Made by a program: the position numbers and the translations under genes
Notes under the pieces: generated by a model
Database searches by the model: none
Told to the model about the DNA's origin: nothing
Seen by the model: the letters and a program-made list of their open reading frames with translations, nothing else
From: Acidobacteriota bacterium
Lineage (GTDB): Bacteria; Acidobacteriota; Blastocatellia; RBC074
Direction: 5' to 3'
Length of the DNA: 64,000 bases
Assembly: GCA_016196035.1 (NCBI GenBank)
Contig: JACPYM010000015.1
Location: 128,525 to 192,524 of the forward strand
Shown: positions 48,644 through 51,638 of the stretch, piece by piece
How the letters are laid out: every line of letters starts with the position of its first letter
Position numbering within the stretch: the first letter of the stretch is position 1

Positions 48644-50119
48644 TCAATTCAACCGCCCCCCGCTCCAATCATCAAAATCCCGCTCGCGGCGTTTCGACGG
48701 GCGTTCCTGCGCCACCTGGCTATAACTCGCCGAACCGCGTGCCTCGCTGCGCGCCAGTTTCTTTTGCGCGTGCAACCCTTCCAGCACCAATTCGCAGCCG
48801 CAGATCAGCGTGCCGTCGGCTTCGTCTTCCAATAAACCGCTGCGCACGGCGTCGAGCAGTCCTTTGACTTTGTTGAATTGGGCGAGCACGTCGGCGCTGC
48901 TGGCGAGTTCGTGAATCAGCAGGCTCTTGCCGTGGTTGAAATGGTCGAGTACCTGGCGCAGGTCAATGCCACTGTAACGTTCGCTGAAAACCTCGCCGCA
49001 GGCTTTGCGAATGAGTTCGCGGGCGATGCGTTCGGCGCCGATTTGTTCGCCTTCGTATTCCAGTTCCAGCTTGCCGGTGATCGCGGGCAGCGCGGCGTAA
49101 ATGTCGCTTAGGCGCGGCGCGACGACGCTTTCGTCATTCAACAACGCACGGCGCTCGGCATTCGAGACGACGCTTTCGAGCAGCGAAATCGGCAGGCGCT
49201 GGCTAACGCCGGAGCGCGCGTCAATGCGTTTGTCGGCGCGGGCGATGAAAGCAACTTGCTCGACGATTTCGCGGATGGCGGACGGGATGACGACTTCCAA
49301 TCCGTCGCTGCTGCGTTCCGTCCAGGCTTCCTGCCGTGTGATTTCCATGCCGTGCGTGAGCGAGGCGGGGTAATGCGTTTGAATCTCGGCGCCGATGCGG
49401 TCTTTGAGCGGCGTGATGATTTTGCCGCGCGCGGTGTAATCCTCCGGGTTGGCCGAAAAGACCAGCAGCACGTCCAGCGGCAGGCGTATCGGATAGCCTT
49501 TGATCTGCACGTCGCCCTCTTGCAAGATGTTGAAGAGTCCCACCTGAATTTTCCCAGCCAGGTCAGGCAATTCATTAATCGCAAAGACGCCGCGGTTGGC
49601 GCGTGGCAACAGGCCGTAATGGATCGTCAATTCGTCGGAGAGCAGGTGGCCGCCGCGCGCGGCTTTGATCGGGTCAACGTCGCCGATCAGGTCGGCGATG
49701 GTCACGTCGGGCGTGGCGAGCTTTTCGACGTAACGCGCGTCGCGGTCAACCCAGGCGATGGGCGCGTCATCGCCGCGTTCGGCGATGAGTTGTTTGCCGT
49801 AGGCCGAGAGCGGCGCGAACGGATCGTCGTTGATTTCCGAGCCGACCAGCACGGGAATTTCGTCGTCAAGCAGCGCCGTCAGATCGCGCAGGATGCGGCT
49901 TTTGGCCTGACCGCGCAGCCCCAACAAAATGAAGTTTTGCCGTGCCAGCAGCGCGTTGACGACTTGCGGGATGACGGTGTCTTCGTAGCCGACGATGCCT
50001 GGGAAGAGCGGCTCGTTGCGCTTGAGCTTGCCGATCAGGTTGCGGCGGATTTCAGTTTTGACATCGCGGTGTTGGTAGCCGCTGGTTTTGAGTGCACCGA
50101 GTGTGAGCGGTTTTGTCAT
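48644..50119 (-). CDS. MoxR/ChlI-like AAA+ ATPase
   Basis: 491 residues. AAA+ core of the Mg-chelatase-I/MoxR clade. The nucleotide loop FILLGLRGQAKSRIL is a Walker A variant (GxxGxxKS). AINELPDLAGKIQVGLFNIL, then QEGDVQIKGYPIRLPLD, is the characteristic insert, and VFSANPEDYTARGKIITPLK precedes the sensor region. The C-terminus is helical and ends with a low-complexity basic tail. The family works as a chaperone-like ATPase with a VWA partner. A VWA gene lies 0.8 kb away, but its product is secreted, so it is an unlikely partner. Function unknown; not magnesium chelation for chlorophyll. Confidence 0.85.
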   Translation of the reverse strand: MTKPLTLGALKTSGYQHRDVKTEIRRNLIGKLKRNEPLFPGIVGYEDTVIPQVVNALLARQNFILLGLRGQAKSRILRDLTALLDDEIPVLVGSEINDDPFAPLSAYGKQLIAERGDDAPIAWVDRDARYVEKLATPDVTIADLIGDVDPIKAARGGHLLSDELTIHYGLLPRANRGVFAINELPDLAGKIQVGLFNILQEGDVQIKGYPIRLPLDVLLVFSANPEDYTARGKIITPLKDRIGAEIQTHYPASLTHGMEITRQEAWTERSSDGLEVVIPSAIREIVEQVAFIARADKRIDARSGVSQRLPISLLESVVSNAERRALLNDESVVAPRLSDIYAALPAITGKLELEYEGEQIGAERIARELIRKACGEVFSERYSGIDLRQVLDHFNHGKSLLIHELASSADVLAQFNKVKGLLDAVRSGLLEDEADGTLICGCELVLEGLHAQKKLARSEARGSASYSQVAQERPSKRRERDFDDWSGGRLN

Positions 50120-50238
50120 AAAAACGGATGCCTTGGGAATTACAGCCAGCTTTAAGGCGTGCTGCGGGTTGATGATTCAAACGACGGGTTCGATCTTACT
50201 TTCGCTGAGTGGCTGCGGCAAGCGTGTGTCCATCGCCC

Positions 50239-50344
50239 GACCGTGAGAGCAGTGCTCTTGCAAAGTCCTCAAAACATCCGCCAAAGACCTTTGACCGTTC
50301 GAGCGCTCGCGCTGGCGACTTTGCAAGAGCACTGACCGTGAGAG
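50239..50344. mobile_element. Short palindromic insertion flanked by an 11-bp direct repeat
   Basis: An inverted repeat CAGTGCTCTTGCAAAGTC (50250-50267) / GACTTTGCAAGAGCACTG (50317-50334) encloses about 50 bp. The element is bordered on both sides by GACCGTGAGAG (50239-50249 and 50334-50344). This is the pattern left by insertion with target duplication. No protein is encoded. The repeat arm differs from the CAGTACCGCG family. Confidence 0.6.
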
Positions 50345-50514
50345 AGGCAAGTGTGGAGTTGGAACCGCTGGACTTTAAGTGGGGCTTGCCCTCGCTCATG
50401 GCCGGGTTACGGACACGTTTTTTTGCCGACTGCTGAAACCTTCGCTTGCGCCCCGCCACTTACGGCACGGCAAGCGCGAACAAGCAACACATTTCAATTC
50501 AGGAGAGAGAAACC

Positions 50515-51324
50515 ATGACCAATCAATTCTTCAAAACCGTCGCCGCCATCGCCGCCTTATGCCTGCTCAGCACCGTCGCCTGGGCGCAAAAAGATGAACG
50601 CGGTTTGAACTGCGACAACAACAATCGCTGGAATAGCGACCGGGCCAATCATTGCGTGATGCGCGAATTTAATGCGACGCCCGGCGGCGTCATCAATGTG
50701 GATGGGCGCACGAATGGCGGCGTCTCGGTGAAAGGCTGGGATCGCGCGGACGTTTTTGTGCGCGCCCAAGTACAAACCTGGGCCAATACCGATGATGAAG
50801 CCAGAGCGCTGGCCGAGCAGGTGCAAGTCGAAATCAGCGGCACGAATATTCGCTCCAATGGTCCCACGACACAGGGGCGCAAAGGCTGGTCAGTCAGTTT
50901 TGAAGTCTTCGTGCCGCGCCGTTCCGACCTCATGCTCAAGGCGCACAACGGTGGCATCAGCGTGCGCGAGGTGCGCGGCAACATCCAATTCGACACCACC
51001 AATGGCGGCGTCAGCCTGACGAAGCTGGCGGGCAATGTGAGAGGCACGACCACCAACGGCGGCGCGAATATCGTGCTGGACGGTCAGCGCTGGGATGGCG
51101 AAGGGCTGGATGTGCGCACGACCAATGGCGGCGTGAAGGTGATTATGCCTGAGGGTTATGCGGCGCATCTGGAAACGGGCACGGTCAACGGCGGACTGAC
51201 CTTTGATTTCCCCGTCACGGTGCAAGGTAAGATTGACCGCGAGTTGAACACCGACATCGGCGGCGGCGGCGCGCCGATTCGCGTGCGCACGACCAACGGC
51301 GGCGTTTCGATTCGACGGCAATAG
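50515..51324 (+). CDS. Secreted NGG-repeat beta protein (DUF4097-like)
   Basis: 269 residues, signal peptide TVAAIAALCLLSTVAWAQ. After a cysteine-containing start (GLNCDNNNRWNSDRANHC) the protein has seven turns of the form (T/H/V)NGG: TNGGVSVKG, HNGGISVRE, TNGGVSLTK, TNGGANIVL, TNGGVKVIM, VNGGLTFDF and TNGGVSIRR. This fits a parallel beta-helix or beta-stack of the DUF4097/DUF4098 type. AGGAGAGAG at 50501-50509 supports ATG 50515. No catalytic motif is seen, and the role is unknown; such proteins are frequently secreted or exposed. Stands between a MoxR-like gene and a cluster of inverted repeats. Confidence 0.78.
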   Translation: MTNQFFKTVAAIAALCLLSTVAWAQKDERGLNCDNNNRWNSDRANHCVMREFNATPGGVINVDGRTNGGVSVKGWDRADVFVRAQVQTWANTDDEARALAEQVQVEISGTNIRSNGPTTQGRKGWSVSFEVFVPRRSDLMLKAHNGGISVREVRGNIQFDTTNGGVSLTKLAGNVRGTTTNGGANIVLDGQRWDGEGLDVRTTNGGVKVIMPEGYAAHLETGTVNGGLTFDFPVTVQGKIDRELNTDIGGGGAPIRVRTTNGGVSIRRQ

Positions 51325-51638
51325 GCGTTGGAACAGTACCGCGCGCGTCAGCAAGCGGAGCTTGAAGTTGTCTGCCAAACGCAATCGAGTGCAGGCTCCG
51401 CTTGCTGACGCGCGCGGCACTGCAACAGCGTAGTTCATGCAAAACGCGGCTGACGCGGAGGCAACGCAGCGGTTTGGACTTTTCGCAGGGGTGCTTAAAT
51501 TCGAGCCGCGATGTTGCCTCCGCGTCAGCCGCGTTTTGCGTTGAATCAGTACCGCGCGCGTCAGCAAGCGGCGGCTTCATCGTTGACCGCTTGATGTACC
51601 AATGACGAACCGCTTGCTGACGCGCGCGGTACTGTCCA
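51325..51638. repeat. Cluster of three tandem inverted repeats (CAGTACCGCGCGCGTCAGCA family)
   Basis: Hairpin 1: arms 51334-51361 and 51395-51422 (28 bp, one mismatch). Hairpin 2: 51439-51465 and 51513-51539, arm GCAAAACGCGGCTGACGCGG, 27 bp perfect. Hairpin 3: 51547-51571 and 51610-51634, 25 bp perfect, with the same arm start as hairpin 1. Hairpins 1 and 3 are preceded by similar sequences (GCGTTGGAACAGTACC / GCGTTGAATCAGTACC). The cluster lies between the convergent stops of the NGG-repeat and beta-barrel genes. Confidence 0.8.

Follow-up and report, generated by a model that had tools for sequence, protein, structure and literature searches.

The palindrome studied here, at positions 50250-50334 of the window (the whole 64,000-nucleotide stretch of DNA that was analysed), is a true MITE insertion accompanied by a target duplication, and a member of an ISAs1-type family. 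Our main reading, to which we give a probability of about 0.92, is that it is a MITE with the ends of an ISAs1-family insertion sequence, mobilised in trans, and that the window copy is a derivative from which the core has been deleted. According to the proposed mechanism, an ISAs1-type DDE transposase supplied in trans would bind the 18-bp ends, insert the MITE and leave a 10-bp duplication. The window palindrome by itself is ordinary; the interesting part is the apparent exchange of cores between unrelated ends.

Structure of the window copy

The first-pass annotation had described an 84-bp palindrome flanked by an 11-bp direct repeat. Both structures are real, but both lengths had to be corrected. 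The element covers 85 bp, and the duplication is the 10-bp sequence ACCGTGAGAG; it appears as 11 bp because the apparent right-hand repeat begins with the G that ends the TIR, and a G happens by chance to precede the left copy. The parts of the locus are as follows.

50240..50249, + strand: left target duplication ACCGTGAGAG, 10/10 identical (locus L047), the length of 10 being family-wide
50250..50267, + strand: left TIR CAGTGCTCTTGCAAAGTC, with positions 4 and 8 different from those of the family TIR CAGGGCTTTTGCAAAGTC
50268..50295, + strand: left subterminal arm, equal to columns 19-46 of the 186-bp consensus
50295..50296, no strand: junction at which the heptad hairpin core is missing, 101 bp corresponding to columns 47-147 of the consensus
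50296..50316, + strand: right subterminal arm, equal to consensus columns 148-168
50317..50334, - strand: right TIR, the exact complement of the left TIR, both variant bases included
50335..50344, + strand: right target duplication, 10 bp, on the same basis as the left copy

A repeat search of 50150-50450 returned these TIRs as the sole inverted pair, with arms of 18 nt (50250-50267 and 50317-50334) that are complementary at 18/18 positions and separated by a spacer of 49 nt. The repeat GACCGTGAGAG has only two exact matches in the window, at 50239 and 50334, and two more sites with one mismatch. The window copy's own end reads CAGTG, not CAGGG. Its right arm and TIR, together with two further bases, are 100% identical over 41 bp to another stretch of the own genome (G000:C54:54394-54434). 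As single-stranded DNA the window copy folds at -23.1 kcal/mol, compared with -11.5 (sd 2.2) for shuffled sequences (z -5.33), and none of 200 shuffles folded as well.

A MITE family in the own genome

The palindrome had been interpreted as the scar of a short mobile insertion, and this interpretation is supported by relatives in the own genome, by a family-wide 10-bp duplication and by insertion sequences with the same ends elsewhere. Second copies, which the annotation suggested looking for, occur at dozens of places. When the window stretch was compared with the own genome (9.59 Mb, 139 contigs, 97% complete), at least 66 matching stretches were found, with 40 of the 67 first-look candidates scored. 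The TIR, with no more than three mismatches, has 124 matches in this genome (62 + 62), versus 13 (8 + 5) for the backward pattern. Among the fetched own-genome loci (L009-L067), 39 two-ended copies of 58-193 bp with the TIR CAGGGCTTTTGCAAAGTC were defined by both ends having no more than six mismatches summed, longer pairs and one-ended copies being excluded.

The 10-bp flanks of these 39 elements are alike at 8 or more of 10 positions in 25, at 9 or more in 19 and at all 10 in 10, while 14 elements are without a duplication of at least 8/10. By comparison, among 38000 mismatched pairings of left and right flanks, 8/10 was reached by 23 and a higher value by none. For duplication lengths from 4 to 14, there are 10 perfect cases at 10 bp and either none or one at every other length; therefore, the duplication length of the family is 10. 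The elements accordingly show the features of MITEs: they are short, multicopy and without a transposase gene, and they have TIRs, a duplication of fixed length and ends that match an autonomous element, in this case through the G078 insertion sequence described below, which belongs to another family of the class. One member (L017, 1983-2345) carries a REPIN-like sequence inside a MITE of the CAGGGCTTTTGCAAAGTC-ended family, giving a 363-bp element.

ISAs1-family insertion sequences with the same ends

In the ISAs1 family, the TIR begins with CAGGG and the target duplication is 8-10 bp. Ends starting with CAGGG together with 10-bp duplications, which we take to point to ISAs1, led to this family being named as the candidate before any matching insertion sequence was found. 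The exact TIR is present in 6 of 162 genomes of the class, the own genome included, and the backward control is 0 in all rows. One of these genomes, Pyrinomonadaceae MGR_bin67 (class Blastocatellia), contains an element of 1322 bp (G078:C227:11485-12806) with facing TIRs, 18/18 at both ends, and an ORF of 393 aa between them. The product of this ORF scores 229 bits with the ISAs1 model NF033564 (cut-off 70) and also matches PF13808 and PF01609.

The exact end was also found in 70 stretches of contigs from named genomes (a set that may not include the own genome), some of which will be chance 18-mers. In five of the 70 (L173, L192, L201, L215 and L229), a transposase related to that of G078 lies beside the TIR; L201 is the G078 element itself, and the others are 78% (L173), 53% (L192), 51% (L215) and 46% (L229) identical to it. 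Two of the five come from Pyrinomonadaceae, two from Anaerolineae and one from a Ktedonobacter bin. In L229, both ends are present (0 and 1 mismatch) in 1291 bp, and the score with NF033564 is 223 bits. L215 also has both ends (0 and 3 mismatches versus the pattern) in 1308 bp, with an internal stop in frame, and L192 and L173 are partial or situated at or close to the end of a contig. Of these, G078 and L229 alone look like whole elements with the MITE-type end.

In addition, 14 ISAs1-like loci of the class were examined, and ends could be recognised in seven, all of them starting with CAGGG. One of the seven is the G078 element itself. The ends follow transposase relatedness, as listed here for the other six by identity to the G078 transposase.

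L126: 55% identity, end CAGGGTTCTTGCAAAGTA
L146, L147 and L152: 41-42% identity, end CAGGGTCATTCAGTTCTC or close to it
L130: 34% identity, end CAGGGTAAACGCACCTCA
L132: 32% identity, end CAGGGCAATCGCATCTTA

Clear duplications are present at two of the seven loci with recognised ends (L147, 9/9; L130, 10/10), and no clear duplication was seen at L126, L132, L146 and L152. The insertion sequences with the exact MITE-type end show no target duplication either (L095, 3/10; L215, 3/10; L229, 5/10).

The MITE shares with the ISAs1 family (NF033564) the identical 18-bp ends of the 1322-bp element and a target duplication, which is 9 and 10 bp in two class members. It differs from that family in being without a transposase gene and in its interior, since the MITE arms just inside the TIR, read by eye, bear no resemblance to the insertion sequences with the same ends. 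Consequently, the MITE is not a simple internal deletion of these insertion sequences. This dissimilarity counts against the main reading, as does the lack of a duplication at the insertion sequences with the MITE-type end. On the other hand, ISAs1 elements in other genomes have the same ends and the family has 10-bp duplications, which suggests that these MITE copies were moved by such an ISAs1-type transposase.

In the own genome, no ISAs1 transposase was detected by the family model NF033564, and a search with the G078 transposase gave none among the 11 of 13 first-look candidates that were scored. There are seven PF01609 loci, none of which has the TIR at four mismatches or fewer within the returned stretches. 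The MITE family looks orphaned in this host because no ISAs1 transposase was found in the 9.6-Mb draft, with the caveat that drafts often lose repeats, and it is probably immobile there now.

The full-length copy and the origin of the 85-bp form

Full copies are 172-193 bp long, usually about 186 bp, and a typical one folds along almost its entire length. The alignment of 21 copies of 179-186 bp has 186 columns and is symmetrical around its middle. Columns 41-146 form the core, a long hairpin built of TGAYTCC heptads, and the full copy L011 folds at -60.2 kcal/mol versus -22.0 for its shuffles. Changes occur on both sides of the palindrome at 24 of 67 pairs, 21 of them within the core, versus 9.2 in shuffles (0/500 as high), a control that can be inflated by sequence relatedness. 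Similarly, among the 39 elements, 8 deviations are common to both ends of one element, whereas 1.96 are expected (7 of 10000 permutations as high); part of these represents one subtype, GTGCTC for GGGCTT, to which the window copy belongs. Either hairpin-templated repair or selection for folding would explain the mirrored changes. The loop of the core lies one way in 12 of the 21 copies and the other way in 9, the two forms being reverse complements bar point changes. This suggests that the core inverts between its own arms.

Compared with the consensus of the 21 aligned full-length copies, the window copy consists of columns 1-46 and 148-186 with four substitutions, two per end and at mirrored positions. 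Three adjacent placements of the joint are possible, that is, a 2-bp AC microhomology is present at both edges, and the missing 101 bp are the central hairpin, cut near its base. The likeliest course is probably replication slippage between the 2-bp AC repeats across the hairpin, by which the central 101 bp would have been lost. Other short forms are found at L009 (78 bp), L050 (67 bp) and L044 (58 bp), and their junctions, read by eye, all differ, which fits the expectation for separate deletions.

Cores and ends as possible modules

The heptad pattern has 103 matches in the own genome (100 of them listed) and none in the backward control. In all fetched own-genome loci, 59 core hairpins were counted, of which 34 have the ISAs1-type end on both sides (no more than four mismatches each) and 13 on one side, these two classes being enriched by the choice of loci. 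Four more have another end, CAGTAGTTCCAAA, on both sides, and eight have neither end; these come from 12 of the 15 heptad regions that were read outside the already fetched elements, the other three having no hairpin by the rule used. The flanking 5-mers of the four CAGTAGTTCCAAA-ended cores are alike at 5, 4, 4 and 5 of 5 positions, and the 15-letter form of this end has 10 matches in the own genome with at most one mismatch, versus 1 for the backward form. These loci (L238, L243, L246 and L248) represent a second MITE-like family, with the end CAGTAGTTCCAAA, 5-bp duplications and the same heptad core.

Heptad arrays with no ISAs1-type end visible by eye are also present at 15 loci of other genomes of the class. 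Between ISAs1-type ends, Acidobacteria Bin_42R has CTAAAAC-type heptads, Anaerolineae UWPOB_ANAER4 a CCCTCATCCCC hairpin (duplication 10/10) and a Limisphaerales bin an ACGGAT-type repeat (duplication 9/10). The CCCTCATCCCC motif occurs at 24 sites in the Anaerolineae genome (backward control 0). The ISAs1-type end is present on both sides of 2 of the 24, with duplications of 10/10 and 3/10, and a third end, CTAGAGSCKGTTATGAACTTT, on both sides of 3 of the 24 with no more than six mismatches (backward form 0/24). L283, L285 and L303, in the same Anaerolineae genome as L197, are CCCTCATCCCC hairpins between CTAGAG..GTTATGAACTTT ends of the third type. The Bin_42R heptad pattern is not very specific (39 matches versus 13 backward); of the 30 loci examined, 13 carry the ISAs1-type end on both sides, 6 on one side and 11 on neither, although several of these loci represent one and the same place and some that are close to contig ends are mis-centred. 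A MITE of the Bin_42R type was also found at L207 (184-367), on a contig binned as Gammaproteobacteria Bin_33, which is either a binning stray or a transfer.

One core is common to two end types in the own genome, where a TGAYTCC core of about 96 bp is enclosed in some copies by ISAs1-type ends, with duplications of 10 bp, and in others by CAGTAGTTCCAAA ends, with duplications of 5 bp. The same is indicated in one more genome. Capture or exchange would seem to be the cause of this sharing. We tentatively propose, at somewhat below even odds, that ends and hairpin cores are traded as modules: across several phyla, a transposase lineage would have its ends filled with whatever heptad or palindromic hairpin the host has available, and one such core would serve unrelated transposases at the same time. 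To be a good substrate, a short element may require a foldable core.

Alternative explanations

Could the 85-bp form instead be the ancestral MITE, into which the heptad hairpin was inserted afterwards? The same TIR does enclose unrelated cores in other hosts, as this order of events would allow. However, the window copy corresponds to the full-length consensus minus the core, with four substitutions, and the junctions of L009, L050 and L044 differ; a late arrival of the hairpin is therefore unlikely. As for a hairpin that is retained because it regulates the adjoining divergent genes (as a terminator, attenuator or RNA), the stable fold, the position in a divergent spacer and the covarying arms of full-length copies are all compatible with it, but hairpin-templated repair can also give covariation, no terminator- or sigma-70-promoter-like site was detected in 50100-50520, and the one Rfam match is far below gathering and is taken as chance. 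The dozens of further copies across the genome argue against it as well. One of the two neighbours encodes a DUF4097 protein and the other has no Pfam match at 1e-3. The left-hand gene was matched in 7 of 10 same-family relatives, and both neighbours lie in order on one contig in four (G003, G006, G009 and G010). The proposal to look for the empty site in related genomes thus succeeded only in part: gene order is kept in these four, but the spacer is too diverged for an alignment and no exact empty site was found. The spacer and joined flanks gave weak matches only against 11 loci of relatives (best 46 bp at 76%), and nothing in the relatives' spacers aligns with the element. Taken together, we regard a regulatory hairpin as very unlikely. 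A paralogous near-empty site was seen by eye within the genome, where the copy at 2028 of L014 lies inside a REPIN-like repeat of which another copy occurs in L017; the comparison shows a CG slip at the joint and is not exact.

REPINs are likewise short multicopy palindromes, and they are not known to leave such a target duplication. A REPIN or REP doublet moved by a RAYT (Y1 HUH) transposase would account for a short palindrome with many copies, and REPIN-like pairs are present 1 kb off (51334-51422 and 51547-51634). Nevertheless, the ends of the window MITE are DDE-type ends common to a DDE insertion sequence, and the 10-bp duplications in the family led us to reject this reading, which has very little probability left. 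The REPIN-like pairs themselves, CAGTACCGCGCGCGTCAGCAAGCGG / CCGCTTGCTGACGCGCGCGGTACTG, have many matches in the own genome and in members of the same taxonomic family, and an inverted repeat with 43-nt arms, 84% complementary, lies between them (51439-51539). That a chance palindrome happened to meet a chance direct repeat has a negligible probability and is refuted by the copies across the genome; the fold compared with shuffles, the 10-bp duplications and the rarity of exact GACCGTGAGAG in the window also speak against it. The ISAs1-ended MITE with a deleted core is therefore the reading that we retain.

Comparison with known systems and significance

TIMEs have Tn3 ends and 5-bp duplications. 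The window family differs from them in its ISAs1 ends and 10-bp duplication, while both are non-autonomous miniature elements. TIMEs are presented as Tn3-derived miniature elements, and the title of their description mentions mosaic transposons (PMC4133298). The MITEs of Anabaena sp. 90 are small, multicopy, hairpin-forming elements with inverted ends and a mostly intergenic location, and they were assigned to type II on the grounds that their ends resemble no insertion sequence in that genome (PMC3542288). The window family, in contrast, has a matching insertion sequence, though in other genomes, and its core is common to a second TIR type. No description of the MITE family or its core was found in the titles and opening parts of abstracts searched, which included few subscription papers, and a search of the literature with the element and hairpin sequences gave no related paper, its one match being unrelated by title.

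For the MITE family seen in Acidobacteriota, Anaerolineae and a Limisphaerales bin, a likely mobiliser can now be named, and the host draft provides an example in which such a family appears orphaned. If the exchange of cores is true, MITEs can arise without internal deletion of a parent element, their ends capturing a ready-made hairpin, and this could account for MITE interiors without a counterpart in any insertion sequence.
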